IMG/VR virus record: IMGVR_UViG_3300044858_005015
Coordinates: 1 to 64,000 of that record
Length of the DNA: 64,000 nucleotides
Source: a virus
Direction: 5' to 3' (one strand)
In this document: positions 3,097 to 61,439 of the stretch, piece by piece
Layout: every line of letters begins with the position of its first letter
How positions within the stretch are numbered: position 1 is the stretch's first letter
Program-made: the position numbers and the translations under genes
Notes under the pieces: generated by a model
Databases searched by the model: none
Told to the model about the DNA's origin: nothing
What the model saw: only the letters and a program-made list of their open reading frames with translations

Positions 3097-3444
3097 TTAG
3101 TCTCGAACATTGCGTAAAGCTTGTTCAAAATAGTCATATTCTTGTTGAATACCTATTTCGTACGTTCCTTTTTTTAGAGGAATGGTGTCATGGCGATCTT
3201 TCACCAAGCAACGAACCACAGTTTCTTCTCCGCAATCAATAAAGCGGCGGTTACCCAACTTATAAAAGTTGACTTTAGGTTTTCTATCAATAACATGGTG
3301 ATTTCCAGTAGTTTCAGAATCGGCAATGATCACATACCCCTGCTCATGTTTTTCTAAGGTTGCTTCTACAGGAATTTCATTTTGAAAAATAAAGCATTCG
3401 CCATGTACAATAGTTTTTGGTTTTGTATTTTTCATAATCTTCAT
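3097..3444 (-). CDS. Conserved phage hypothetical protein
   Basis: 115 aa (113 from the second Met). Contains VHGECFIF near the start, then IIADSETTGNHHVID around 40-55, a segment I associate with an unnamed family of small phage proteins. Mostly beta in appearance with a basic, Cys-containing second half. No enzymatic motif. A TTTAAATA box lies about 12 nt upstream. Confidence 0.6.
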   Translation of the reverse strand: MKIMKNTKPKTIVHGECFIFQNEIPVEATLEKHEQGYVIIADSETTGNHHVIDRKPKVNFYKLGNRRFIDCGEETVVRCLVKDRHDTIPLKKGTYEIGIQQEYDYFEQALRNVRD

Positions 3445-3479: not shown

Positions 3480-3698
3480 TCAATTTTTTTTTTTTGTAAA
3501 ATCTTTTACAGAATTACTCACAGAACTCTCCACAGAATCCCACACAGGGCTCCCCACAGAATTATCCACAGAGTACCACACAGCCTCCCACACAGATATC
3601 CCCACAGTATTTCTCAAAGATATCCCCACAGAATCACTCACAGATTTCTCCACAGAATTCCACACAGAATTCCTCACAGAATCTTTAAGCGTTTTCAT
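3480..3698 (-). CDS. SV tetrapeptide-repeat protein, copy 3
   Basis: 72 aa from MKTLKDSVRNSVW, made almost entirely of four-residue units of the form x-S-V-x (NSVW, NSVE, KSVS, DSVG). The regular Val every fourth residue with polar partners suggests a repetitive fold such as a thin solenoid or amphipathic rod. Ends in VKDFTKKKN, unlike the NFNKPL tail of the other two copies. Start placed at the ATG shared in context with the paralogs; a TTG two codons upstream overlaps the previous stop. Confidence 0.6.
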   Translation of the reverse strand: MKTLKDSVRNSVWNSVEKSVSDSVGISLRNTVGISVWEAVWYSVDNSVGSPVWDSVESSVSNSVKDFTKKKN

Positions 3699-4125
3699 TT
3701 TCAAAGCGGTTTGTTAAAATTTTGTACAGAATCCCCCACAGAATTCCACACAGACCTCGCCACAGAATTTCCCACAGAATTCCACACAGAGTACCACACA
3801 GACTTCTTTACAGGATTCACCACAGAATTCATCACAGCCTCCCACACAGAATTCCACACAGATTTCTCCACAGAATTCCACACAGAATCACTCACAGACC
3901 TCGCCACAGAATTTCCCACAGAATCTTTAAGCGTTTTCATTTTTAAAGCGGTTTGTTAAAATTTTGTACAGAATCACTCACAGAATTACTCACAGAACTC
4001 TCCACAGAATCCCACACAGGGCTCCCCACAGAATTATCCACAGAGTACCACACAGACTTCTTTACAGGATTCACCACAGAATTCATCACAGCCTCCCACA
4101 CAGAATCACTTACAGAATCTTTAAG
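3493..4125. repeat. Low-complexity tandem DNA repeat inside the SV-repeat genes
   Basis: On the plus strand the region is a degenerate 12-nt ladder of CACAGAATTCCA-type units, the reverse complement of codons for x-S-V-x. The three genes share long near-identical blocks plus identical junctions (TTTAAGCGTTTTCATTT and TTGTTAAAATTTTGTACAGA), implying duplication and unequal recombination. Confidence 0.85.
3701..3940 (-). CDS. SV tetrapeptide-repeat protein, copy 2
   Basis: 79 aa, starts MKTLKDSVGNSVARSV and ends DSVQNFNKPL. About 17 consecutive x-S-V-x units. The ATG is 2 nt after the stop of copy 1, so translation is probably coupled. Units are recombined relative to its neighbours (the block EAVMNSVVNPVKKSVWYSV is shared with copy 1). 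Confidence 0.65.
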   Translation of the reverse strand: MKTLKDSVGNSVARSVSDSVWNSVEKSVWNSVWEAVMNSVVNPVKKSVWYSVWNSVGNSVARSVWNSVGDSVQNFNKPL

Positions 4126-4143
4126 CGTTTGCATCTTTTTCAT
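3943..4143 (-). CDS. SV tetrapeptide-repeat protein, copy 1
   Basis: 66 aa, starts MKKMQTLKDSVSDSVW, ends SDSVQNFNKPL. First gene of the three-gene array and the one with a strong promoter: a TTGCAG / 17 bp / TATACT element ends 7 nt before the ATG. The MKTLKDS-type start is conserved in all copies. Function unknown; no catalytic residues. Confidence 0.65.
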   Translation of the reverse strand: MKKMQTLKDSVSDSVWEAVMNSVVNPVKKSVWYSVDNSVGSPVWDSVESSVSNSVSDSVQNFNKPL

Positions 4144-4179: not shown

Positions 4180-5139
4180 CTAGGCAATTGCTTCAATTTC
4201 CAGATCTCTCCCCCCAAAACGCTCTTGTATTGCTTCAGTAAGGGTTCTACACTTTGGCGAAACTGCCTCTACATGCCAAACCCCCGTTGTTTGGTTTAGC
4301 ATCTTCAAATGAGGAGCGTAAGTGATTGTTGGGAACAATTTTGACATATCCCAAAGCTCGTATTGGGAGTTGTGCCACATTTTGGTCTTGTATTTTTTGT
4401 AGCTATCAATTTGTGTACCCATATCGAGCATTCTCTCTATGCCGACTTTTTTGACAAATTCCATTTTTTGATCAGCATTTTCGATCAAATTATAATTTTT
4501 TAAAGGGATATCGGTCGATTTTGTCATAGCCAACCACTCAGGAACTACAATTCCATTTAGTGCGTAAACTCTAACATTACCCCTTCCTTTGTAACGGATT
4601 GCAGGTTGTCCGTCGCCATGTATAACATTGTTTTCGTTGAGGTTAATCTCAACAGGTTTTTGACAAACAATACACATGTTTTGTGGTCCAACATCTTTAA
4701 TGTTGAAAATGTAACCGAGTATGTGAGATGCTCGCATCGCTTCGTATTCAGCGTTCACTTCATACTTGATTCCGACTTCATCACGGAAAAAATCATAAAA
4801 ACTATAAAACGATGCATCAAAAGATCCTCTTAAATAAGGAGTGTAGAATTGTTCAATTTGTAATTTTAATTTTCCGTCAAAATAATCATCGACTAATTTA
4901 GGAATATCATTAGCTCGATGGGTTTTGGCTAAATTACAAGCCACCCATGCTTCAACAGGATCATCAAACACAAGGACAGGGGTTGTTTCTTGTTTGAGAA
5001 CGATTTTTTGAAGATCATGGATAATATCTACTGCGTCGTCAAAGCTGAATCTGTCTGTAGATGTCCCTAGTTTAATCCATTTGTCTACATATTGAGGCAT
5101 TGCGGATTTTTGCTTGTCGGTTAGTCCTTCGATTTTCAT
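4180..5139 (-). CDS. DUF6745-like protein
   Basis: 319 aa. The C-terminal half has features I associate with DUF6745: a WLAM...DIPLKNYNLIENAD segment with FVKKVGIERMLDMG (about 205-245), then HVEAVSPKCRTLTEAIQERFGG (about 290-312), like the family's ending with T-x-x-E-A and a final FG. The N-terminal part has a helical DUF-type region and two Cys in CIVC (about 158-161). Biochemical role unknown. Confidence 0.55.
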   Translation of the reverse strand: MKIEGLTDKQKSAMPQYVDKWIKLGTSTDRFSFDDAVDIIHDLQKIVLKQETTPVLVFDDPVEAWVACNLAKTHRANDIPKLVDDYFDGKLKLQIEQFYTPYLRGSFDASFYSFYDFFRDEVGIKYEVNAEYEAMRASHILGYIFNIKDVGPQNMCIVCQKPVEINLNENNVIHGDGQPAIRYKGRGNVRVYALNGIVVPEWLAMTKSTDIPLKNYNLIENADQKMEFVKKVGIERMLDMGTQIDSYKKYKTKMWHNSQYELWDMSKLFPTITYAPHLKMLNQTTGVWHVEAVSPKCRTLTEAIQERFGGRDLEIEAIA

Positions 5140-10710: not shown

Positions 10711-11511
10711 TTAAAGACTATCTATCCATTTAAAGGATTGTTTAATTTGCTCTGAAAATTGCCGACCTAAAACTTCGTTCCAGTCAGGAGCTACCGGTTC
10801 TACTTTACCACGAATCGTGTGATCCCCGTAAGGCCAACCGAGCTCATGTTCATGGGTGTATTGTTCTACGTTATTAAAGTCGTGAGAAGGAGCCTCAATG
10901 CCTAGATAATTCCAGACTGCAGTCATTGTCTCAGCAGGGGCCTTGGTCAGAGATTCAAAATGAACGAAGTGAAGCTTACTCTTAAACCGCTTAACAGCGT
11001 CTGAGAGCCGCTCTACTGCGATACCTAAAGGCGGCATATTCAGCCACCCTTGTGCGCGTTTTTCTACCGTGGTCCAAAGTTGTGGGTTCTGTTTTTCCAC
11101 TCCGGTAAAGGGAAAGGGATGTTTTTGCCATTTTTTCTCAAAGGAGGAAAGAATACCGCGCATGTCTCGTACCGGTACTAGAACTTTAGCATCAGGCCAG
11201 ATAGCAAAAAGCATATCGAGATGCCCAACCCACGAACGGCATTTATCAGCTACAATAGGTCGATCTGTCAGCCGGTTGAAGGCATTCTCACATCCCCCTT
11301 TTACATAATCGTAGAACAGTGTTTCGCCATCTTTGGGGTTTGGAATTGTTTTAAATTCTTCAGTCGCAGAGAATTGCCGAGCAATATAACCGATTTCGTG
11401 GAGCCCTGAGGTTGCGGTTGAGTGAACCTTAGGATTCTGTGCTAAGAGGTTCATTAAAAGAGTTGACCCCGATCTCGGAAGCCCCGACACAAAAATTATT
11501 TTTTTACTCAT
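10711..11511 (-). CDS. Sulfotransferase (PAPS-dependent family)
   Basis: 266 aa. The N-terminal GLPRSGSTLLMNLLAQNP (9-26) is the 5'-phosphosulfate-binding loop; VLVPVRDMRGILSSFEKKW (about 130-148) fits the 3'-phosphate-binding R...S motif. Would transfer sulfate from PAPS to a hydroxyl of a glycan or protein. Embedded among fiber/adhesin genes, so a virion or host-surface glycan is the plausible target. It shares N-terminal organisation and the HDFNN.xQYT region with 48489-49271, so the two are paralogs. Confidence 0.85.
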   Translation of the reverse strand: MSKKIIFVSGLPRSGSTLLMNLLAQNPKVHSTATSGLHEIGYIARQFSATEEFKTIPNPKDGETLFYDYVKGGCENAFNRLTDRPIVADKCRSWVGHLDMLFAIWPDAKVLVPVRDMRGILSSFEKKWQKHPFPFTGVEKQNPQLWTTVEKRAQGWLNMPPLGIAVERLSDAVKRFKSKLHFVHFESLTKAPAETMTAVWNYLGIEAPSHDFNNVEQYTHEHELGWPYGDHTIRGKVEPVAPDWNEVLGRQFSEQIKQSFKWIDSL

Positions 11512-11587: not shown

Positions 11588-12523
11588 TTACGGTACATTA
11601 GGGTAGTTTGTCCAAGCAGAGACGGTGATACCGCTCTTGCCGCCAATAGTTTGTCCAGACCCTAAAGTGTAGCCCGTGGCATCTGGGCCGATATAAATGT
11701 TGGTTATTCCTGAATTATAGAATGCGTAACTTCCGATGGAGCCGATTGGTTGATTGAGGTAAGCGGAAGTTAAACCGAAGCAGTCACGGAATGCGTCACT
11801 TCCAATGGTGGTAACGCTGTTGGGGATTGTGAGATTGCCTGTGAAACCGGAGCACTTGTTAAAGGCAAAGTCTCCAATGGAGGTGACGCTATTAGGTATT
11901 GTGAGACTTCCAGTAAAGTTGTTATTATAAAACGCATAACTTTCAATGGTGACAACACTGTTTGGAAGTACAAGTTCTCCGTCGAATGAGTTTGCTAAGG
12001 AAAGCGAAAAGTTGGCAAATGCATATTGTCCGATTGATGTGACGCTATTTGGTATAGTGAGTTCACCGCGAAGAAGCGCATTGTCTGCAAAATTGTCATG
12101 GATGGTGGTTCTGCCATCCGCGATGATTGTTCTGGTGAAGTATGTATCGTAAAATGCGTAGCTTCCAATTGAGGTGACGCCAGTTCCGATGATGAGATTA
12201 CCCGTGAAGCCAGTGCAATATCTGAATGCGTTGCTTCCGATGGAGGTAACGCTATTGGGTATAACGATATCGCCTGTGAGATATGAGCAGCCGCTGAATG
12301 CGTAGTCACCAATAGAAGTGGCGGAGTTTCCGATATACAGTTGAGTAATGTCGGTGTTGCTGGCCTTCCAGTTTGACGGAATGTCTCCATTGAGAAACTG
12401 AGTATCCTGGACATTTCCATCGTATATAAGTGTTGGAAATAGTGGAATGTCTTCAAAGCATCTAAGAGCAGTTCTTATGCCGGAAAGTGTTGTACTGGAA
12501 GCTGTAGTAAGTTCTATAGACAT
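11588..12523 (-). CDS. BspA-like leucine-rich-repeat adhesin, copy 2
   Basis: 311 aa. Residues about 60-270 are repeats of the BspA/TpLRR (LRR_5) type, unit IPNSVTSIGxxAFxxC-x5-G with about 23-residue period. N terminus MSIELTTASSTTLSGIRTAL and the C-terminal YIGPDATGYTLG...GITVSAWTNYP are near-identical to copy 1, while the repeats differ. LRR_5 proteins bind surfaces and matrix proteins; here probably a virion-attached receptor-binding module. Late-type box upstream. Confidence 0.85.
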   Translation of the reverse strand: MSIELTTASSTTLSGIRTALRCFEDIPLFPTLIYDGNVQDTQFLNGDIPSNWKASNTDITQLYIGNSATSIGDYAFSGCSYLTGDIVIPNSVTSIGSNAFRYCTGFTGNLIIGTGVTSIGSYAFYDTYFTRTIIADGRTTIHDNFADNALLRGELTIPNSVTSIGQYAFANFSLSLANSFDGELVLPNSVVTIESYAFYNNNFTGSLTIPNSVTSIGDFAFNKCSGFTGNLTIPNSVTTIGSDAFRDCFGLTSAYLNQPIGSIGSYAFYNSGITNIYIGPDATGYTLGSGQTIGGKSGITVSAWTNYPNVP

Positions 12524-12532
12524 GTGTTTTAG

Positions 12533-12540
12533 TATTTATG
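12533..12540 (-). promoter_or_regulatory. T4-late-like promoter box CATAAATA
   Basis: CATAAATA ending 9 nt before the ATG at 12523, overlapping the short gap between the two LRR genes. Confidence 0.55.
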
Positions 12541-12541
12541 A

Positions 12542-13465
12542 TTACGGTACATTAGGATAGTTAGTCCAAGCAGAGACAGTGATACCGCTCTTGCCGCCAA
12601 TAGTTTGTCCCGCTCCTAAAGTGTAACCTGTGGCATCTGGGCCGATATAAATGTTGGTTATGCCGGTAAGATAAAACGCATAGCTTCCAATGGAGCTGAT
12701 GGGTTGGTTGAGATATGCGGAGGTTAAGCCTGTGCAGTTTTCAAATGCATAGTTTCCAATTGAGGTCACGCTATTGGGGACTTTGAGGTAGCCTGTGAAC
12801 CCATCGCAAAATCGAAAGGCGCGGTCTCCAATTGAGGTGACGCTGTTCGGGATGATTAGGTCGCCTGTGAAGCTGGAGCAATACTGGAATGCATAACTAC
12901 CAATTGAGGTGATGCTGTTGGGAATAACAAGATCGCTATTTAGGTCTGAGCAGTCCATGAATGCAGAATTTCCAATGGAGGTGACACTATTAGGAATTAT
13001 GAGTTCACCAATAAGCTTCGCGTTGAATGCAAAATCTCCGGGAATAGTCGTTCTGCCATCCGCAATTATTGTTCTGGTAAAGTTGGTTCCTTTGAATGCA
13101 TATCCCCCGACAGATGTGACGCCAGTTCCGATGATGAGGTCGCCAGCTAAGGCGTTGCAGTTATAGAACGCATCACTTCCAATAGTGGTAACGCTATTCG
13201 GGATAACAAGATCATTTGTGAGATAGTAGCAGCCGCTGAATGCGTTGCTTCCGATGGAGGTTGCTGAGTTTCCGATATACAGTTGAGTAATGTCGGTGTT
13301 GTTGGACTTCCAATTCTCTGGTATGTCTCCGTAGAGAAATTCTGTCTGTCCTGTGGTTCCATTGAAAACTAAGGTCGGGGCAAGTGGAATGTCTTCAAAG
13401 CATCTAAGAGCAGTTCTTATGCCGGAAAGTGTTGTACTGGAAGCTGTGGTAAGTTCTATAGACAT
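12542..13465 (-). CDS. BspA-like leucine-rich-repeat adhesin, copy 1
   Basis: 307 aa, paralog of 11588-12523, with conserved terminal regions and a central run of IPNSVTSIG..AF..C repeats whose order and exposed residues differ. The first 80 bp and promoter region of both genes are almost identical in DNA, showing recent duplication. Likely an alternative or paired binding protein on the virion. Confidence 0.85.
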   Translation of the reverse strand: MSIELTTASSTTLSGIRTALRCFEDIPLAPTLVFNGTTGQTEFLYGDIPENWKSNNTDITQLYIGNSATSIGSNAFSGCYYLTNDLVIPNSVTTIGSDAFYNCNALAGDLIIGTGVTSVGGYAFKGTNFTRTIIADGRTTIPGDFAFNAKLIGELIIPNSVTSIGNSAFMDCSDLNSDLVIPNSITSIGSYAFQYCSSFTGDLIIPNSVTSIGDRAFRFCDGFTGYLKVPNSVTSIGNYAFENCTGLTSAYLNQPISSIGSYAFYLTGITNIYIGPDATGYTLGAGQTIGGKSGITVSAWTNYPNVP

Positions 13466-19960: not shown

Positions 19961-20695
19961 ATGTCTAATACTAAATCAGTTGTTATATACAGCGGGGGGA
20001 TGGATTCAACAGTAATCTTACATCATGCTATTAAGAACTTTGAAGATGTTTATTGTTTAACATATAACTATAATCAAAGACATAAACTTGAAATTGATAA
20101 AGCTATTAATTATACAGCTGATTTAGGTGTTGGTGAAGGTCAAAAGATTCAACAACATATTATTGTTGATTTGACATTTTACGCTAAATTAGCTACTGCA
20201 TCTGCTTTAACTAATCCTAATATTAATGTGCCTAAAATGGCGGAGGTAATTGGAGAAGCTCAAACTTTGGCGTATGTTCCAAATCGTAATACAGTAATGC
20301 TTTCAATTGCTGCTGGATATGCTGAATCTATTGGAGCAGAAACTATTCTTTATGGTGCTGCTATGGCAGACGACACGAGCGGTTTTTGGGATTGTACAAA
20401 TCATTACCTTGAACTTTATAACTCTATTTTAGCGCTTAACCGAAAGAATACTATTCAAGTTCAGGCGCCGCTTATTAAGATGTCTAAGAAGGAAATTATT
20501 CAATATGGCGTAGAGCTCGGTATTAATTTTTCTAAGACGTTAACCTGCTATAATGGGGAAGAGGTGGGCTGTTCTCAATGCCCGGCTTGTGCCGCTCGTT
20601 TGCGCGGCTTTATAGACGCAAAGTTAATTGATCCGGTTAAGTATGCTATAGACATTGACTGGACTAAGTATGGGTGTCAGCCTATAATGTCCTAA
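19961..20695 (+). CDS. queC: 7-cyano-7-deazaguanine (preQ0) synthase QueC
   Basis: 244 aa, full length for QueC. PP-loop SGGMDST (11-17), YVPNRNTVMLS (105-115) and a C-terminal zinc site C196, C204, C207, C210 (CYNGEEVGCSQCPACAAR). QueC converts 7-carboxy-7-deazaguanine to preQ0 with ATP and ammonia. In phages preQ0 feeds DNA 7-deazaguanine modification or host queuosine. The stop overlaps the start of a class II amidotransferase gene by one base, so the two are translationally coupled. FolE, QueD, QueE and a DpdA transglycosylase are not in the window. Confidence 0.93.
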   Translation: MSNTKSVVIYSGGMDSTVILHHAIKNFEDVYCLTYNYNQRHKLEIDKAINYTADLGVGEGQKIQQHIIVDLTFYAKLATASALTNPNINVPKMAEVIGEAQTLAYVPNRNTVMLSIAAGYAESIGAETILYGAAMADDTSGFWDCTNHYLELYNSILALNRKNTIQVQAPLIKMSKKEIIQYGVELGINFSKTLTCYNGEEVGCSQCPACAARLRGFIDAKLIDPVKYAIDIDWTKYGCQPIMS

Positions 20696-29491: not shown

Positions 29492-30505
29492 ATGAATAAA
29501 TCTCTCAATTATAAAGACGTTCACCTTGTACCTAATTACTCTGATCTCAAATCGCGCTCAGAGGCTGACACCTCAGTCAAGTTAGGCAATTTTACTTTTA
29601 AGCTTCCTATTGTACCGGCTAACATGGCCTCTTGTATCTCTTATGAGAAGGCTACTTGGCTGTCACAGAACGGTTACTTCTATATCCTTCACCGGTTTTA
29701 TGACTATGATGAGATCTTGAACTGGATGCGTAGAATGAACAAGTGTTCTGATCTTCTACCTTTTGTTTCTATCTCAGTAGGTATTAAGCAGAGAGATGTA
29801 GAGTTCCTGGCTAAGGTGGTAGACGAGAAGCTTAGACTTGACTTTATTACTGTTGATGTGGCCCATGGTGACCATGAAGAGGTTATCGGTATGTTAGGAT
29901 ACTTGAGGGCACTTAGACGCTGTGTCTACCCAGAGCTGTTTATCATCGGTGGCAATATTGCTACACGGAGCGCTTTCCAGCGGCTTAAGCCATATGTAGA
30001 TGCGGTGAAGGTTGGTGTAGGCCCGGGCGCAGCCTGCACAACTTACAATAAGACAGGGTTTGCATCTCCTATGTTTTCTACCGTAAAAGAGATTGCTGAA
30101 GTTAAAGAGTCTCATTCTATGGCTGGTAACGGAGAAGGTTCTACACCTCCCTATGTAGCACCTCTCATTATCGCCGATGGAGGTATTTCTTGTAATGGAG
30201 ATATTGCCAAGGCTCTAGTAGCAGGAGCTGATATGGTTATGGCTGGGTCAATGTTCGCCCGGTGTATTGATTCTCCGGCTATGGTCGACCCTACTGATCC
30301 TACTAAGAAGCTCTACTTCGGTTCTGCTTCTGCTATGAACGGCAATAAGAAGAACATTGAAGGACGGACCTTGTCTATGCCTATGAACGGGATGACCTAC
30401 GAACAGAAGATGAATGAGGTTAGACAGGATTTGGCATCAGCTGTTTCTTATGCTGGAGGCAATGATTTAGAAGCCTTCAAAGAAGTTGAATACCGTCTCA
30501 TTTGA
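29492..30505 (+). CDS. guaC: GMP reductase, GuaC type
   Basis: 337 aa, single TIM barrel without CBS domains. Cys loop VGVGPGAACTTYNKTG (174-189) with catalytic C182, PLIIADGGISCNGDIAKAL (about 220-238), and the C-terminal YFGSASAMNGNKKNIEG (about 274-290) and QDLASAVSYAGG, matching the Bacillus/Staphylococcus GuaC branch rather than IMP dehydrogenase. Reduces GMP to IMP with NADPH. In a phage it could rebalance guanine pools or act on a modified GMP; the latter is speculation prompted by queC in the window. Confidence 0.85.
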   Translation: MNKSLNYKDVHLVPNYSDLKSRSEADTSVKLGNFTFKLPIVPANMASCISYEKATWLSQNGYFYILHRFYDYDEILNWMRRMNKCSDLLPFVSISVGIKQRDVEFLAKVVDEKLRLDFITVDVAHGDHEEVIGMLGYLRALRRCVYPELFIIGGNIATRSAFQRLKPYVDAVKVGVGPGAACTTYNKTGFASPMFSTVKEIAEVKESHSMAGNGEGSTPPYVAPLIIADGGISCNGDIAKALVAGADMVMAGSMFARCIDSPAMVDPTDPTKKLYFGSASAMNGNKKNIEGRTLSMPMNGMTYEQKMNEVRQDLASAVSYAGGNDLEAFKEVEYRLI

Positions 30506-42746: not shown

Positions 42747-43652
42747 ATGCGCTACTATGGTATACAAAATGAAGTTAAAGCATATTTGAATAGACTCCAA
42801 AGTGAAACATCTATTCAAATAACCCCTTCTATTGTAAAGACCTTAAATGATAGAGTAGAATCTTTAAAGAAGTCTGGTGTCTGGTCACAGTTTGGCTTAG
42901 GTTTTAATGATACAGATGCTGATAATTATTTTCAAAGAGCCTCAGTAAATGATGTAATAGGGAGATCAGAAGTATGTTGGTTTGTTCGAGGAATAAAGTC
43001 TTTAGGTCTGTGGCAGAATATGGTCAGTTGGCCTTTGAGAAGTTATCAGAATGCAGGAACAGGAAGCACTGTTTATAGTTTAGGGGGTGGAGGTATATCA
43101 AATGGTACTATGGTTAATTCTCCAACTTGGGGCATAGATGGTATTACTTTTTCAGCAACATCTTCTCAGACTAAAACAGATACATTAGGTCTTCCACCTA
43201 CACCATTTAGTTCTATTGTAGTTGGTAAAAGAGTTTTAGGTACGGGTACAGCATCGTGGGAATATGTAGGTACCGGTTCAGAAGGTACTCGATCAGTAGC
43301 AAGAAGAGTATATGCTAATAATTCTATGGGCATAAGCATACAAGGTGTAGGTTATACTATGTTAGTGAATACAAACGATCAAACATTTACAGATAATATC
43401 GAATATGTTCATATGACAATGCCCTCTCTCGTAAATGCAAATGCTGAAGTTTTTATAAATTTAACAAAACCAGCCCAAACAGCAGGAGGAGCTAATTGGG
43501 GAGTAAATGCTTCAACAGGAGGTATATTTCGAGTTTTAGGAGATTTGATTTTTCAAACTACGTTTCATGCAACATTTAACATTAGTATAAACAATGTTAA
43601 CTTTTACAACCTCTACAAATCAACCCTCGGCTCCAACCTCGGACTACCATAA
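42747..43652 (+). CDS. Lectin-array protein 1 (ConA/LamG-like)
   Basis: 301 aa. Shared head: MRYYGIQNEVKAYLNRL, GIKSLGLWQNMVSWPLRS, NAGTGSTVYSLGGG, NGTMVNSPTWGIDGI, the opening of a ConA/LamG sandwich. The remainder is unlike the other four. The head is probably the attachment part and the tail a binding domain. Confidence 0.7.
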   Translation: MRYYGIQNEVKAYLNRLQSETSIQITPSIVKTLNDRVESLKKSGVWSQFGLGFNDTDADNYFQRASVNDVIGRSEVCWFVRGIKSLGLWQNMVSWPLRSYQNAGTGSTVYSLGGGGISNGTMVNSPTWGIDGITFSATSSQTKTDTLGLPPTPFSSIVVGKRVLGTGTASWEYVGTGSEGTRSVARRVYANNSMGISIQGVGYTMLVNTNDQTFTDNIEYVHMTMPSLVNANAEVFINLTKPAQTAGGANWGVNASTGGIFRVLGDLIFQTTFHATFNISINNVNFYNLYKSTLGSNLGLP

Positions 43653-43655
43653 CAT

Positions 43656-44480
43656 ATGGCAAAACGATACTACAATTTAGAAAAAGAGACAAAAGAGTAT
43701 TTGAAGGCTTGTGAGGCTAAGAATGTAGCTCCGTTTAGAGCTATTAAAGATATTAATGATATTTTTATAAATCAGAAAGCTAATAACCGATTAGGTTCTT
43801 CTTTTATAACTAATCTAAATTTAAACGGGGCTGTTTTATTTTCAGACGCTTCTTTACAGAGTTCTTATACAGGCACAGGTAACTCTTTTGGAGATATAAG
43901 CAGTTTTAATAACAATGGTACCATATCAGGTCAAATATTTACAAATGACGGCTTAGGTAGTTTTTTATTCAATAACAACTCCATAACATTTCCGAATACA
44001 ATAAATGGTATTCAGCCTTTACAGACAAGTTATGCAATATCAGTATGGATCAAATTAGTCACTAGACCGTTAATTGCCAACTACTATGGTTTTTTTGCCC
44101 ATCAATCATTAGCATCAGTAAGTGCAGGTACCCCTAGATTAGAAATAGGTCAAGATATAAGCGGTAATTTATATTTTGCAACTTATAACCACTCTACAGG
44201 TGTTGTAAATAACGGTGCTTCAATTTTTATGTTGCCTTTAGGGACTTGGATTAATATTTGTGTAGTAGCGGGGTCAAATTTAAACAGAACTTTTGTAAAC
44301 GGGCAACTCGTTAATTCTGTTTCTGTAACTTCTAACTTTCCTGATTTCACTCATCCCACTTTTTTGGGATATAGAAACTATAATGGTTTAGCATCTAATT
44401 TAATAATTTATAATAGAGAGCTTACAGCACTTGAAGTACTCCAAAACTACAACGCATTAAGAGGGAGGTTCGGTTTATGA
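43656..44480 (+). CDS. Lectin-array protein 2 (LamG-like)
   Basis: 274 aa. Keeps the YNLEKETKEYLKACEA start but diverges in the head; the C-terminal 180 residues are the clearest LamG/ConA fold of the set (SYAISVWIKLVTRPL, GTWINICVVAGSNLNRTFVNGQLV, ASNLIIYNRELTALEV). Laminin-G-like domains often bind glycans. Overlaps the next gene by 4 nt. Confidence 0.75.
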   Translation: MAKRYYNLEKETKEYLKACEAKNVAPFRAIKDINDIFINQKANNRLGSSFITNLNLNGAVLFSDASLQSSYTGTGNSFGDISSFNNNGTISGQIFTNDGLGSFLFNNNSITFPNTINGIQPLQTSYAISVWIKLVTRPLIANYYGFFAHQSLASVSAGTPRLEIGQDISGNLYFATYNHSTGVVNNGASIFMLPLGTWINICVVAGSNLNRTFVNGQLVNSVSVTSNFPDFTHPTFLGYRNYNGLASNLIIYNRELTALEVLQNYNALRGRFGL

Positions 44481-45289
44481 TTTCATCCAAATCATACGGC
44501 TTACAAAATGAGACAAGGCAGTACCTAAGAAGGTTATATGCTTACGGGAGAGAACTAGCTCCTACAGATGTTGCTGATATAGATAATTTTATAAAGGGTT
44601 TAAAACAATTGAATTTCTGGGGTAATGTTATTTGTTGGCCTATGAGATCTATACATAACATAGGTACAGGTTCTACAGTTCTTAGTTTAGGTAAAATGAA
44701 TGATGGTTACCAAGGAAACGGAACACTATTAAATAGCCCTACATGGAGTTCTAATGGTATTGTTTTTGATATTGGTAGTATACATAGTATGCAGTGGACT
44801 AATTTTAGATATCCTTTGTATTTTATGACCCAAACAACTCTTTCTGTCAATACTTCAGTTGCTACAGATATAAACCTACTTGGTACCAGCGTAGCAAGTA
44901 TTGGTAGTCCGAACAGTTTAACTCTTAAAATAAGCAATTTACAAGGTAGAACGTGGAGAACGTGGAGATATCTTACAAGTTCAAATCACGATCTTATATT
45001 TACAAACAATTACGACACATCTTGGAGAACTATTACATGTTATTTAAACAACACATTTAAAGCTGTTAGAAACAATAAAACTCAAATAGGTAGTACCTCG
45101 ATAGACGCAACGTTTTTACAGAGAACTATAACAGACTGTATCGGGGCAGCGACTGCCAGTACCACGTTTAGATTTCATGGTACAATTGCTTCTCATTTAA
45201 TAACTAGAGCACCAATTTCGTCAACAGAAAGTGACAATCTTCATGATCTAGTTAAAACCACAATAGGTAAAGGATTGAACTTACCATAA
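44477..45289 (+). CDS. Lectin-array protein 3
   Basis: 270 aa. Head SYGLQNETRQYLRRL, DIDNFIKGLKQLNFWGNV, CWPMRSIHNIGTGSTVLSLG, NSPTWSSNGIVF; variable beta-rich tail ending TTIGKGLNLP, similar to the ends of proteins 1 (TLGSNLGLP) and 5 (SLGLGLNIP). The conserved final LxLP may be a second contact point. Confidence 0.7.
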   Translation: MISSKSYGLQNETRQYLRRLYAYGRELAPTDVADIDNFIKGLKQLNFWGNVICWPMRSIHNIGTGSTVLSLGKMNDGYQGNGTLLNSPTWSSNGIVFDIGSIHSMQWTNFRYPLYFMTQTTLSVNTSVATDINLLGTSVASIGSPNSLTLKISNLQGRTWRTWRYLTSSNHDLIFTNNYDTSWRTITCYLNNTFKAVRNNKTQIGSTSIDATFLQRTITDCIGAATASTTFRFHGTIASHLITRAPISSTESDNLHDLVKTTIGKGLNLP

Positions 45290-45293
45290 CACT

Positions 45294-46118
45294 ATGTCCA
45301 CACCCAGACAATACCAATTTGATGTAGATACTAAGCGTTATCTCAACAGAGTTAACACTTATAGGTCTTTAAACGGCTTGCCAGATATTCAGAAGTCTGA
45401 TGCAGCTGATATAGACAACTTTGTGATTGGGTTGAAGGACTTAAATTTATGGCAAAACACAACACTTTGGCTCATGAGATCTGTTCACAATATAAGTGTT
45501 GGTTCAAATCTTTTATGCACCGGAGGAGGGCCTCAGTTAGATATAACTCTTATCAACTCTCCGTCATGGACAACAAATGGCATAACCTTCAATAGAAGTC
45601 TTGATCAATACGGCTTGACAAGAGTAGTTGATGTTTTAAACGATTTTGGTGCCTTTGTTGTTGTTGATCATGATAGAAACAATGGTGGTTCTTTTATTAC
45701 TCAAGATAGGTGGTCAGGGGCTTCTGGAGACGGTGGGTTTAATTGGCTTTTACAAAGAAACGATTCAACTTCAGTACAGTTATTTATCGGTAATAATACT
45801 ACAGGATCAGCTTTTACGAATATTACAGCACCAACATCAGGTTTTATGTTCCATGGAGGCATAAAATCTATAAGAGGTAATTCACATAGTGTGAACGGGG
45901 GTGCGGTTTCTACTGTAGGGTCTGTTAGTCAATTTTTAGGCACCAAAAGAATGGCTATAAGTTTGGCCAGATCAGGGTGGGGGTCTGGTAGTGCTATGTC
46001 AGGAACTATGGCTGCAGCATGTTATTTAAATACCAGCTTATCTCCCACCCAACAAACATTTCAAAGTTTAAATAGCTTGTTAAGAGCTACCATTTGTAAA
46101 GACATTTTAACCACATAA
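45294..46118 (+). CDS. Lectin-array protein 4
   Basis: 274 aa. Head YQFDVDTKRYLNRV, AADIDNFVIGLKDLNLWQNT, LMRSVHNISVGSNLLC, NSPSWTTNGITF; tail rich in Gly/Ser with GGSFITQDRWSGASGDGGFNW. Similar length to its neighbours but with little tail identity, as expected for diversified binding modules. Confidence 0.7.
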   Translation: MSTPRQYQFDVDTKRYLNRVNTYRSLNGLPDIQKSDAADIDNFVIGLKDLNLWQNTTLWLMRSVHNISVGSNLLCTGGGPQLDITLINSPSWTTNGITFNRSLDQYGLTRVVDVLNDFGAFVVVDHDRNNGGSFITQDRWSGASGDGGFNWLLQRNDSTSVQLFIGNNTTGSAFTNITAPTSGFMFHGGIKSIRGNSHSVNGGAVSTVGSVSQFLGTKRMAISLARSGWGSGSAMSGTMAAACYLNTSLSPTQQTFQSLNSLLRATICKDILTT

Positions 46119-46123
46119 CAACC

Positions 46124-46927
46124 ATGCCCAGAATAAGAACATACGGATTAGATATAGACACAATCAGATATGCCCAGAGGGTCAAGTCTGGTTCTGGTAC
46201 TACTATACTCCCTGAACCTTTAAAGCAGATTAATAAGTTTGTTGTAGGGGTTAAGAAGCTGGGGTTATGGAACTCTATGGTCTGCTGGCCTATGAGAAGT
46301 ATTCATAATGCGGGAACTGGTAGTACAGTTTATAGTTTAGGGGGCTTGCAGATATCGAATGGCACTATGGTCAATTCTCCTGTTTGGGGTGATAAAGGAA
46401 TTAAATTTGGAGATAATTCAAATCGGCATATGACCACAGGTATAACCCCCGCTCTTAATTCTAATTACAATGTTTTTGCTGCTATGGAATGCTTGCCCCA
46501 AGGGGTTGCTTTTAACGTGATGGGGTCAACGAGAAACGGTACTACAGGTGGATTCACAATGGCTCAATTTTGGAATAGTGCTTGGAACAATATTGCATGG
46601 GTGTCTAGTGGTACTTGGGCAGAGAATAGAATAACACCCCCCATAACAGACGGTACGTACAATACTGCTTCGTTTAGAGTGAATTGTACACCCACCCACG
46701 TAACAGGACTGTCAATAAACAGCAATGTTGAACAAACAATCACAGGCACGGGCGTGGTGCAGATTGCTCATAGCCCAATGATTATAGGTAATGAAGGACC
46801 AACAAGCACTCGTTCTTTTGACGGAAATCTTGCCTTTACATCCTATATAGTAACATCTACTATACCTGTAACCTTCTTACACACCCTTTATAAAAGATCT
46901 CTAGGTCTAGGTTTAAACATCCCTTAA
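46124..46927 (+). CDS. Lectin-array protein 5
   Basis: 267 aa. Head YGLDIDTIRYAQRV, KQINKFVVGVKKLGLWNSM, CWPMRSIHNAGTGSTVYSLG, NGTMVNSPVWGDKGIKF, nearly identical to protein 1 over the NAGTGSTVYSLGG block; tail variable and Asn/Thr-rich, ending LGLNIP. Confidence 0.7.
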   Translation: MPRIRTYGLDIDTIRYAQRVKSGSGTTILPEPLKQINKFVVGVKKLGLWNSMVCWPMRSIHNAGTGSTVYSLGGLQISNGTMVNSPVWGDKGIKFGDNSNRHMTTGITPALNSNYNVFAAMECLPQGVAFNVMGSTRNGTTGGFTMAQFWNSAWNNIAWVSSGTWAENRITPPITDGTYNTASFRVNCTPTHVTGLSINSNVEQTITGTGVVQIAHSPMIIGNEGPTSTRSFDGNLAFTSYIVTSTIPVTFLHTLYKRSLGLGLNIP

Positions 46928-48488: not shown

Positions 48489-49271
48489 TTAAAAGTTAAA
48501 GTGAAAATTTTGAAATTGTTCATGCATATAACCTAGAACTTCTTTTGAATCGTCTTTTACTGGGGCTATTTTAGGTCTAATGGTGTGAAGATCAGTAAAG
48601 CCGTGTTCAGCATCATTCTCTTTCGTATACTGAGGTATATTGTTAAAGTCATGATCGAAGTATTCTTCATCTAAAAACTCATAAACGTACTTTATAGTAA
48701 GTTCGGGCTGTGTAGTTAGCTTGTCAAAATCAATAAAGTGAAATTTATCTCTGTGACCTCTCATTACAGCGTCTCTAATGGAGTTAAATGTACCACCGAT
48801 TAACCCGTCTTGAGCGGCCCATACACCAAGTCTTCCTTCCAGTGTTTGCATCTGCGGGCCAGTCTCCATAGGAGAGTTTATATTTTTTATTTCTTTTCTA
48901 TAAAGCTTTTCCATAGAGGCCAGGATACAGGTTATCTTTCTTGTAGTAGTTAAGATTTTAATAGGGTGGCCTAAAGCATTTTCTACGAGTTCAATTTTAG
49001 GTGCCCAGCCTCTCGATTTATTAAAGACTGTAGGGCGATCGGTGTCCTGATGATAGGACTGAAAGAGATCTTTAATAATTGACAACTGCTTTTCGGGTGT
49101 TTCAGAAGCTTTAATTACCGGATTGTTTTTCCAAAACTGATGCACCCCCTGAACCAATTCAGATAAACCTGAAGTCGGTGTAACATGAAATTTTGGGTTC
49201 TGTGCTAGAATGTTGCACAGAAGGGTTGAACCTGAACGGGGCATCCCGTTTATGAAGTAAATTTTTCTCAT
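48489..49271 (-). CDS. Sulfotransferase (PAPS-dependent family), second copy
   Basis: 260 aa. INGMPRSGSTLLCNILAQNP (7-26) is the 5'-PSB loop; ILTTTRKITCILASMEKLY (about 108-126) is the 3'-phosphate motif. DHDFNNIPQYT matches the HDFNNVEQYT of 10711-11511, so these are paralogs at moderate divergence. In an unbroken minus-strand run with the GT9 gene, suggesting a glycosylate-then-sulfate pathway. Confidence 0.85.
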   Translation of the reverse strand: MRKIYFINGMPRSGSTLLCNILAQNPKFHVTPTSGLSELVQGVHQFWKNNPVIKASETPEKQLSIIKDLFQSYHQDTDRPTVFNKSRGWAPKIELVENALGHPIKILTTTRKITCILASMEKLYRKEIKNINSPMETGPQMQTLEGRLGVWAAQDGLIGGTFNSIRDAVMRGHRDKFHFIDFDKLTTQPELTIKYVYEFLDEEYFDHDFNNIPQYTKENDAEHGFTDLHTIRPKIAPVKDDSKEVLGYMHEQFQNFHFNF

Positions 49272-59858: not shown

Positions 59859-61439
59859 TTAAAACGGTATAATCGGAACCCTTACATTAGTTCCATTGAG
59901 CCTTATAATTACAGAAGATGTCTGATTGGTAAATGTAGTATCTGCTACTGTAGATAATTGCCAAGTAGAAGAACCGAGAACAAACTGATTGTTTTGTGTT
60001 GCTGCGGCACATGTTCCTAACACAATAACTCCGGATAAATTACCTGTTTGTGTATCTGCCTGAGTACCTATTATAATATTATTTGTTCCTGTAGTGTTGC
60101 TACATCCAGCACCACAACCAAAAAAGCTGTTATTGCTTCCGGTAGAGTTAGCATAACCGGCGCGCCGACCAAAAAAGCTATTATTGCTACCGGTAGTATT
60201 ACAATAACCAGCATCAATTCCCAAAAAGTTGTTATATCTGCCCGTGGTATTAGAACGACCAGCATAGTTACCTATAAAGTTGTTATTACTCCCTGTAGTA
60301 TTGTAAAGTCCGGCCAAGTTGCCTATAAAGTTGTTAAAACTACCGGTACTATTACTGCTCCCAGCTACATTACCTATAAAGTTATTTTGACAGCCCTGAT
60401 TACAATAACCTGCTTTAAAGCCAAAAAAGTTATTATAAGAACCACTACTACTAGCATCACTGCAAAAACCAGCCTGAGTACCAAAGAAGTTATTATGAGC
60501 ACCCTTATTATACTTACCTGCCTCAAAACCAATAAAGTTGCTACACCCACTACTATAATGATTACAGAAACCAGCGCGTGTGCCAAAGAAGTTATTGTGT
60601 GAACCTCCGTCCCTGTAGCTACCTGCTTTATACCCAATAGCGTTGTTAAAACTACCGCAACTAGTTTCGAAGCGACCTGCCCAAGTACCAATAAAATTAT
60701 TATGTGAGCTGCCCGAAGAGTCGTCAGAGCCCGCACAAGTACCAATAAAGTTGTTATGGGACCCGTTGTTAGAGTTAAAGAGCCCTGTCTTGTAACCAAT
60801 AAAGTTGTTAAAACTCCCCCCACAACCATATAAGGCACAAGAGCCAGCAAGCGTACCTATGATATTATTATTGGAACTACTTATATTACTACTTCCAGCA
60901 TATTCACCAAACAAGTTGTTGCTATTGCCAGTGTTATTATAAGAACCGGCAAAAAGACCAAAGAAATTGTTGCGGTTCCCTGTAGTGTTATTAAAACCAG
61001 CAAAAGAACCAATAATATTATTGTAGTTCCCTGTAGTATTGCAAAGTCCTGCATCAGGCCCCATAGCGTTATTGCCACTACCTGTAGTGTTGTAAGAACC
61101 AGTACGTTTGCCAAAAAAATTGTTATACCGGCCGGTAGTATTCTGGTTACCAGACTGATAACCAAAAAAATTGTTATTATAACCTGTAGTGTTGTAAGAA
61201 CCAGTACGTTTGCCAAAAAAATTGTTATACCGGCCGGTAGTAAGAGAACATCCCGCTCGCCTACCAAAAACAAAGTTATGGGTTCCAGTAGTATTATTAT
61301 TACCTGTGGTAGAGTCTCCGATAAAAATGTTAGTGTTTTTTACAAAAACGTTATTAGCACTCAAAGGCCCTCCAACTACAATACTTCCTGAAGAGAGACT
61401 TTTTACAAATAAATCATTATTATTAAATTCTTGTGCCAT
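59859..61439 (-). CDS. Repeat adhesin with about 23 NNFxG-x2-AG units
   Basis: 526 aa. From about residue 45 to 460 it is a tandem array of about 17-23-residue units of the form NNFFGxxAGxxNTTGS, with variants NNFIG and NNAMG. The regular Gly/Asn pattern resembles trimeric beta-roll heads (YadA-like) and would form a thin stacked shaft. N terminus MAQEFNNNDLFVKSLSSGS and end IVLGTCAAATQNNQFVLG are fiber-like. Receptor-binding or shaft protein. Confidence 0.75.
   Translation of the reverse strand: MAQEFNNNDLFVKSLSSGSIVVGGPLSANNVFVKNTNIFIGDSTTGNNNTTGTHNFVFGRRAGCSLTTGRYNNFFGKRTGSYNTTGYNNNFFGYQSGNQNTTGRYNNFFGKRTGSYNTTGSGNNAMGPDAGLCNTTGNYNNIIGSFAGFNNTTGNRNNFFGLFAGSYNNTGNSNNLFGEYAGSSNISSSNNNIIGTLAGSCALYGCGGSFNNFIGYKTGLFNSNNGSHNNFIGTCAGSDDSSGSSHNNFIGTWAGRFETSCGSFNNAIGYKAGSYRDGGSHNNFFGTRAGFCNHYSSGCSNFIGFEAGKYNKGAHNNFFGTQAGFCSDASSSGSYNNFFGFKAGYCNQGCQNNFIGNVAGSSNSTGSFNNFIGNLAGLYNTTGSNNNFIGNYAGRSNTTGRYNNFLGIDAGYCNTTGSNNSFFGRRAGYANSTGSNNSFFGCGAGCSNTTGTNNIIIGTQADTQTGNLSGVIVLGTCAAATQNNQFVLGSSTWQLSTVADTTFTNQTSSVIIRLNGTNVRVPIIPF
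60072..61310 (-). repeat. Tandem repeat DNA of the NNFxG adhesin
   Basis: Repeats encode 17-23 aa; a 48-nt-type unit AACAACTTTATTGG... recurs with minor variants, and some neighbouring units are identical (for example two NNFFGKRTGSYNTTG blocks). Such arrays can change length by slippage or recombination. Confidence 0.8.

Follow-up and report, generated by a model that had tools for sequence, protein, structure and literature searches.

The three x-S-V-x repeat genes (SV genes) at positions 3480-4143 of the window, by which we mean the whole 64,000-nt stretch of DNA analyzed, probably represent a hypervariable short-repeat rod in free-standing, duplicated form, which acts, probably in trans, with a DUF6745 protein; we put the probability of this reading at about 0.62. 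Most viral relatives carry the repeat inserted into the DUF6745 protein and not as a gene of its own. The window comes from an uncultured viral record of 68 kb.

Three tandem x-S-V-x genes

The SV genes all lie on the minus strand, namely: SV3 (3943..4143; 66 aa, with an alternative ATG at 4134), SV2 (3701..3940; 79 aa) and SV1 (3480..3698; 72 aa from its ATG or 74 aa from a TTG at 3704). SV3 starts 36 nt past the end of a DUF6745-like gene at 4180-5139, and the genes follow one another with a stop-to-ATG spacing of 2 nt, both from SV3 to SV2 (TAA-AA-ATG) and from SV2 to SV1 (TGA-AA-ATG). The first-pass annotation, made from the sequence alone, had described three tandem ORFs with a valine at every fourth residue, built from strongly duplicated 12-nt units, and this description is borne out. 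The ORFs of 66, 79 and 72 aa are where it placed them, and 15 SV dipeptides are in phase in their best frame, compared to a maximum of 3 in 2000 shuffles of the region and a maximum of 3 in the rest of the window. Tandem Repeats Finder (TRF) gives a period of 12 nt with 34.6 copies, with higher orders of 24, 36 and 48 nt, and duplicated stretches link the genes (e.g. 3490-3644 and 3962-4116, at 83%). The open antisense frames that it mentioned are also present. The array is one of small tandem ORFs with period-4 S-V repeats and shared ends.

The annotation had also taken the SV genes to be driven by a consensus-like promoter, which is not supported. The only near-consensus sigma-70-like site nearby (TTGACA-16-TATCAT, 3470-3443 on the minus strand, an 11/12 match to the consensus) is downstream of the SV genes; by its placement it would serve the 115-aa gene (3097-3444). 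On the upstream side of the first SV gene, only TTGCAG-17-TATACT can be read from the sequence (8/12, under the scan threshold).

Searches of the SV proteins against Pfam, PHROG, NCBIfam and PADLOC returned no fitting family; a few weak matches to Pfam and PHROG reach at best E=1.6e-4 and fall under the Pfam cut-offs. SV2 has no sequence relative in a PDB sequence search.

Several other features of the window were seen in passing. Two P-loop, sulfotransferase-like proteins ('GxPRSGSTLL') are recognizable by eye at 10711-11511 and 48489-49271, as are a QueC-like ORF ('YSGGMDSTV') at 19961-20695 and an ORF resembling IMP dehydrogenase/GMP reductase at 29492-30505. Two tandem PHROG_18805-like paralogs at 11588-13465 are identical in their first 28 residues (MSIELTTASSTTLSGIRTALRCFEDIPL), and five consecutive paralog-like ORFs of about 270-300 aa ('YGLQNETRQYL') occupy 42747-46927. 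A spike-like virion protein gene (59859-61439) contains 51-nt tandem repeats at 60168-61279.

A conserved gene pair flanks the array

The gene at 4180..5139 (minus strand) encodes a 319-aa DUF6745-like protein that lacks the repeat insert of its relatives. Its direct match to Pfam PF20530 (15.2 bits, E=0.014) is below the curated cut-off of 27 and does not by itself place the protein in the family, whereas two close relatives (G002 and G004) score 27.4 bits. Against homemade HMMs of viral DUF6745 proteins it gives E=2e-30 for the tails and E=4e-7 for the heads. We assign it to DUF6745 on the basis of its end-to-end homology to proteins that pass the PF20530 cut-off and of its having the same partner gene. 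No PDB match at E<=0.001 was available to suggest a function from the fold, and no relatives of this protein or of the fused DUF6745 protein of L012 were found among 50,697 phage records.

The partner gene (3097..3444, minus strand) encodes a 115-aa PHROG_27831-like protein (E=1.5e-4) with conserved histidines H50 and H85; its family has no Pfam, NCBIfam or PDB match. A homolog lies beside DUF6745 in all 8 of the window-type loci tested, with the order shuffled. Using an HMM, the 115-aa family was found beside DUF6745 on the same strand in 88/88 loci holding both, which correspond to about 61 distinct viral and bacterial records, some loci being counted more than once. Ten of the loci are on bacterial chromosomes, of the class of a Streptomyces genome, and the chromosomal DUF6745 proteins examined at full length have no such repeat. 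From this co-occurrence, DUF6745 and the 115-aa protein are a conserved gene pair in phages and Streptomyces.

In the window, as in G001, the SV genes sit between the two partners. Because 4180-5139 and 3097-3444 form a conserved pair, and because the repeat is part of the former in relatives, the array is not an isolated oddity without context. The first-pass annotation had missed this pair; its picture of tandem, duplicated, valine-periodic genes that may form a rod otherwise stands, apart from the promoter.

The SV genes as coding sequences

Canonical SV-repeat ORFs occur in more than 100 IMG/VR records, a lower bound from pattern and protein scans. Among bacterial genomes, a scan for the TCT codon pattern gave one canonical SV protein among the matches listed, in a Prevotella MAG. 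Several contigs (L150/L178, L176/L198, L170/L175, L156/L194 and L020/L034) have both of their ends inside an SV array, which looks as though assembly had broken circular genomes at that point, and SV arrays may be under-assembled in metagenomes.

Within one array the Ser-Val codon pair is 94% uniform, and it differs between arrays (TCT GTG, TCT GTA, TCG GTC, TCC GTG, AGC GTC, AGC GTG, AGC GTT and others). Across records, the same motif is thus written with mutually incompatible codons, TCN or AGY for Ser and GTG, GTA, GTC or GTT for Val. No single silent step leads from TCN to AGY serine codons, so what has been conserved is the protein. In fused genes the commonest Ser codon accounts for 97% of serines within the repeat vs. 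37% outside, and the commonest Val codon for 97% vs. 48%, indicating that each array grew from few units and that general codon bias is not the cause. In free arrays of 10-20 genes, the frame, the N-cap and the C-cap are all kept. By these codon and frame patterns, the SV genes are protein-coding.

Fused and split arrangements

An SV repeat is found inside the DUF6745 protein in at least 59 viral records. The insert follows the N-terminal ~75 residues and precedes the C-terminal domain, between 'SPLSQGLTRAI' and 'YGQHDAxWLxFY', and in our alignment of these proteins (A1) this zone is absent from the 4180-5139 protein. A second, unrelated viral protein with an embedded SV repeat is present in at least 32 records (e.g. 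L008, L006, L011, L208 and about 28 more); it has a DUF7666-like N-terminus and a C-terminal 'FDGxxWRLH' motif ('VPSFDGKxWRLHxGKNAxIVYE'). The repeat is therefore not tied to DUF6745 alone.

Free-standing tandem SV genes with shared ends were found in about ten records among the matches listed. Searches with PF20530 and the window protein showed DUF6745 without an in-frame repeat in 9/11 free-array records, one of which, L152, was left out as it is really a fused gene with a frame-shifted repeat zone. DUF6745 is present in 7/9 distinct free-array records vs. 2/32 controls (Fisher p=5e-5), and in both positive controls the coordinates suggest a repeat array within or next to DUF6745. In the window, G001, G002, G004, G005 and G007, array and DUF6745 are neighbours on one strand; the distance is 3.3 kb in G008 and 26 kb in G009, while in G003 (L010) the array is at the contig end. 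There is no DUF6745 in the 86-kb record of G006 (L037). The distances in G008 and G009, together with this last record, suggest that some arrays may act alone.

The reverse search with the window-type DUF6745 gave nine such loci besides the window, plus the distant, partly matched L409 as a tenth. SV arrays are nearby in L400, L402-L404, L405 and L406, and tandem x-Q-V-x genes stand in their place directly downstream of DUF6745 in L407 and L408. The contig of L401 ends 421 nt past the DUF6745 gene and could not be assessed; in L409, a QV repeat is embedded in the DUF6745 protein. Hence all 9 assessable window-type loci, the window included, have an SV or QV array, and they count as eight independent loci since G002 and G004 (L403 and L404) are nearly one phage. 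Over both searches, a repeat-free DUF6745 protein accompanied by tandem SV or QV genes is seen in the window and about ten further phages, namely G001, G002, G004, G005, G007 and G008, with L400 and L406 (SV) and L407 and L408 (QV) added by the reverse search.

Other repeats in the same slot

To survey the slot independently of the SV motif, we searched with the small protein alone. This gave 23 viral loci, in 22 of which DUF6745 adjoins. A short tandem repeat fills the slot in 20/21 resolvable loci, L438 being the only one without it. The repeats are of the SV (5), QV (3), QL (1) and AV (1) kinds, AT tetrapeptides (5) and tripeptides of the form [D/A]A[R/L/I/Q] (5); the non-SV kinds (AT tetrapeptides, QL, AV and the tripeptides DAR/AAL) occur in L425, L426, L428, L430, L433-L437 and L441-L443. 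They have a common two-position alphabet, with mainly D/A (or D/G) first and R plus W, G, L, I and others last; it should be noted that the slots were aligned by position between the conserved flanks and not by homology of the repeats themselves.

Variation within the arrays

In 44/53 fused SV arrays, positions 2 and 10 are the two most variable of the twelve bases. Third positions average 0.28 bit; in control tetrapeptide arrays taken from these scans they average 0.63 bit and are the most variable. Deviations are seen at the silent Val sites in 1.5-4.6% of units, at the second bases of x1 in 30-36% and at the first bases of x4 in 51-55%. Twelve arrays, one of them 41 units long, vary at no more than two of the twelve bases, and in L441, which has 57 nine-base tripeptide units, seven of the nine bases are invariant and two vary. 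Free arrays are more diverged than fused ones. A divergence that leaves silent bases untouched requires strong diversifying selection, or else an unknown process.

The first-pass annotation had proposed comparing repeat numbers among isolates. Two near-identical phages with a 6.2-kb array differ there by 2 substitutions and by indels of 12 and 36 nt only. The order of units has no preferred lag, and three-unit words recur above shuffled expectation (z=13), as is expected from block duplication.

Predicted structure

The annotation had raised the possibility of a rod and suggested structure prediction. AlphaFold, using an alignment of 27 free-standing proteins, models SV2 as one long helix (residues 4-75; mean pLDDT 85, pTM 0.45). 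In the model of the fused L012 protein the SV zone is also helical, at a very low pLDDT of about 30, and both flanks are confident. The Gln-, Ala- and Leu-based scaffolds that occupy the same slot favour a helix as well, whereas a standard coiled coil is disfavoured by the frequent Gly at x4 and by a period of strictly 4 residues. A beta-solenoid with a fixed number of sides is not supported, as repeat numbers have no modulus and units no preferred lag. On these models, the SV proteins are likely helical rods.

Proposed role and alternatives

Taken together, these data point to DUF6745, the small protein and the repeat array as an undescribed three-part phage system; no described system combines these parts. 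An open-access literature search found nothing on DUF6745 or such arrays, which is weak evidence given its incomplete coverage. In the lineage of the window phage, the insert would have left the DUF6745 protein and now be supplied by the adjacent tandem genes. The SV proteins, as mostly helical rods, may bind to or oligomerize with the DUF6745 protein in trans. Arrays would turn over as units are duplicated and deleted and as different x residues are selected for; this would alter the length and the surface of the rod, as expected if it contacts a fast-evolving host partner. Host-factor binding and evasion of recognition are the leading ideas for the role of the module.

A selfish or neutral minisatellite, whose 12-nt repeat expands by slippage or recombination, is open by chance and encodes inert proteins, would account for the open antisense frames, the unit-sized indels and the recurring three-unit blocks. 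We consider it very unlikely, as it fits poorly with S-V residues kept through incompatible TCN and AGY codons, with frame and caps preserved across 10-20 genes, with a conserved gene neighbourhood, and with variation at amino-acid-changing sites where control arrays vary most at third positions. The confinement of variation to one or two bases per unit recalls the targets of diversity-generating retroelements, but this origin is most improbable: none of 24 array-bearing records has a PF00078 reverse transcriptase, in a search that was positive in control genomes, and at the main variable positions the bases are A/C and A/G/T-rich, which is not the pattern of adenines changed to all four bases.

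The single-helix model of SV2 and weak tape-measure profile matches of the embedded forms (PHROG_1272, E=2.5e-5 to 4e-5) would suit a structural rod or length ruler, tape-measure-like or fibrous, of a virion or cell-surface structure. This is unlikely, since the matches are low-complexity, the genes are ORFs of 66-79 aa in many copies and not one large ORF, no tail gene is recognized adjacent to them, and chromosomal Streptomyces loci have the DUF6745 pair without the repeat. A variable decoy, in which diversification of the arrays serves to evade or soak up a recognition or defence protein of the host and DUF6745 is the effector, agrees with the excess of amino-acid-changing over silent variation, the many paralogs in each phage and the different scaffolds in one slot. 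It is nevertheless doubtful, as host-factor binding without immunity is equally possible, there is no known defence partner, and PADLOC gives no match to a known anti-phage defence protein up to E=0.1.

Returning to the free-standing rod that works with DUF6745, we tentatively offer a bolder version, which we hold to be possible but not probable. Many kinds of phage would possess a dedicated repeat rod that is rewritten rapidly; in each of its 3-4-residue units two positions would vary, drawing on small alphabets (mostly D/A; R/W/G, L or I), within a near-invariant scaffold. With the alphabet kept across scaffolds (SV, QV, QL, AT, tripeptide), the order of unit types would set partner specificity, and the window phage and its kin would have moved the rod to multigene cassettes. 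If the main reading is right, a three-component phage module is defined and two protein families of unknown function gain a partner; it would also reveal a slot in which repeat units differ at bases that alter the amino acid but keep their silent bases.

Comparison with known systems

An RNA-level element was considered and set aside, as the window gave no Rfam match and contains no tRNA. Pentapeptide-repeat proteins resemble the SV proteins in having strict short-period repeats. Their period is five residues, A(D/N)LXX, whereas that of the SV array is 4 residues (12 nt), and no Pfam match links the two. The TLP-4 freshwater glycofibril (PDB 9ikm), made of XTAS tetrapeptides, likewise has a tetrapeptide period with Ser at each fourth residue, but its core is Thr-Ala-Ser without Val; the profile of fused proteins (A1) matches it at E=0.0018, probably through low complexity. 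The DUF7666-like viral protein has an equal x-S-V-x zone between other flanking domains and was not found beside the window array. PHROG_27831, which the 3097-3444 protein resembles, adjoins DUF6745 in other phages and in Streptomyces. The neighbouring gene of the window is a divergent relative of DUF6745 (PF20530), and while its fused relatives embed the x-S-V-x repeat, the window differs in carrying the repeat outside, as three separate genes.
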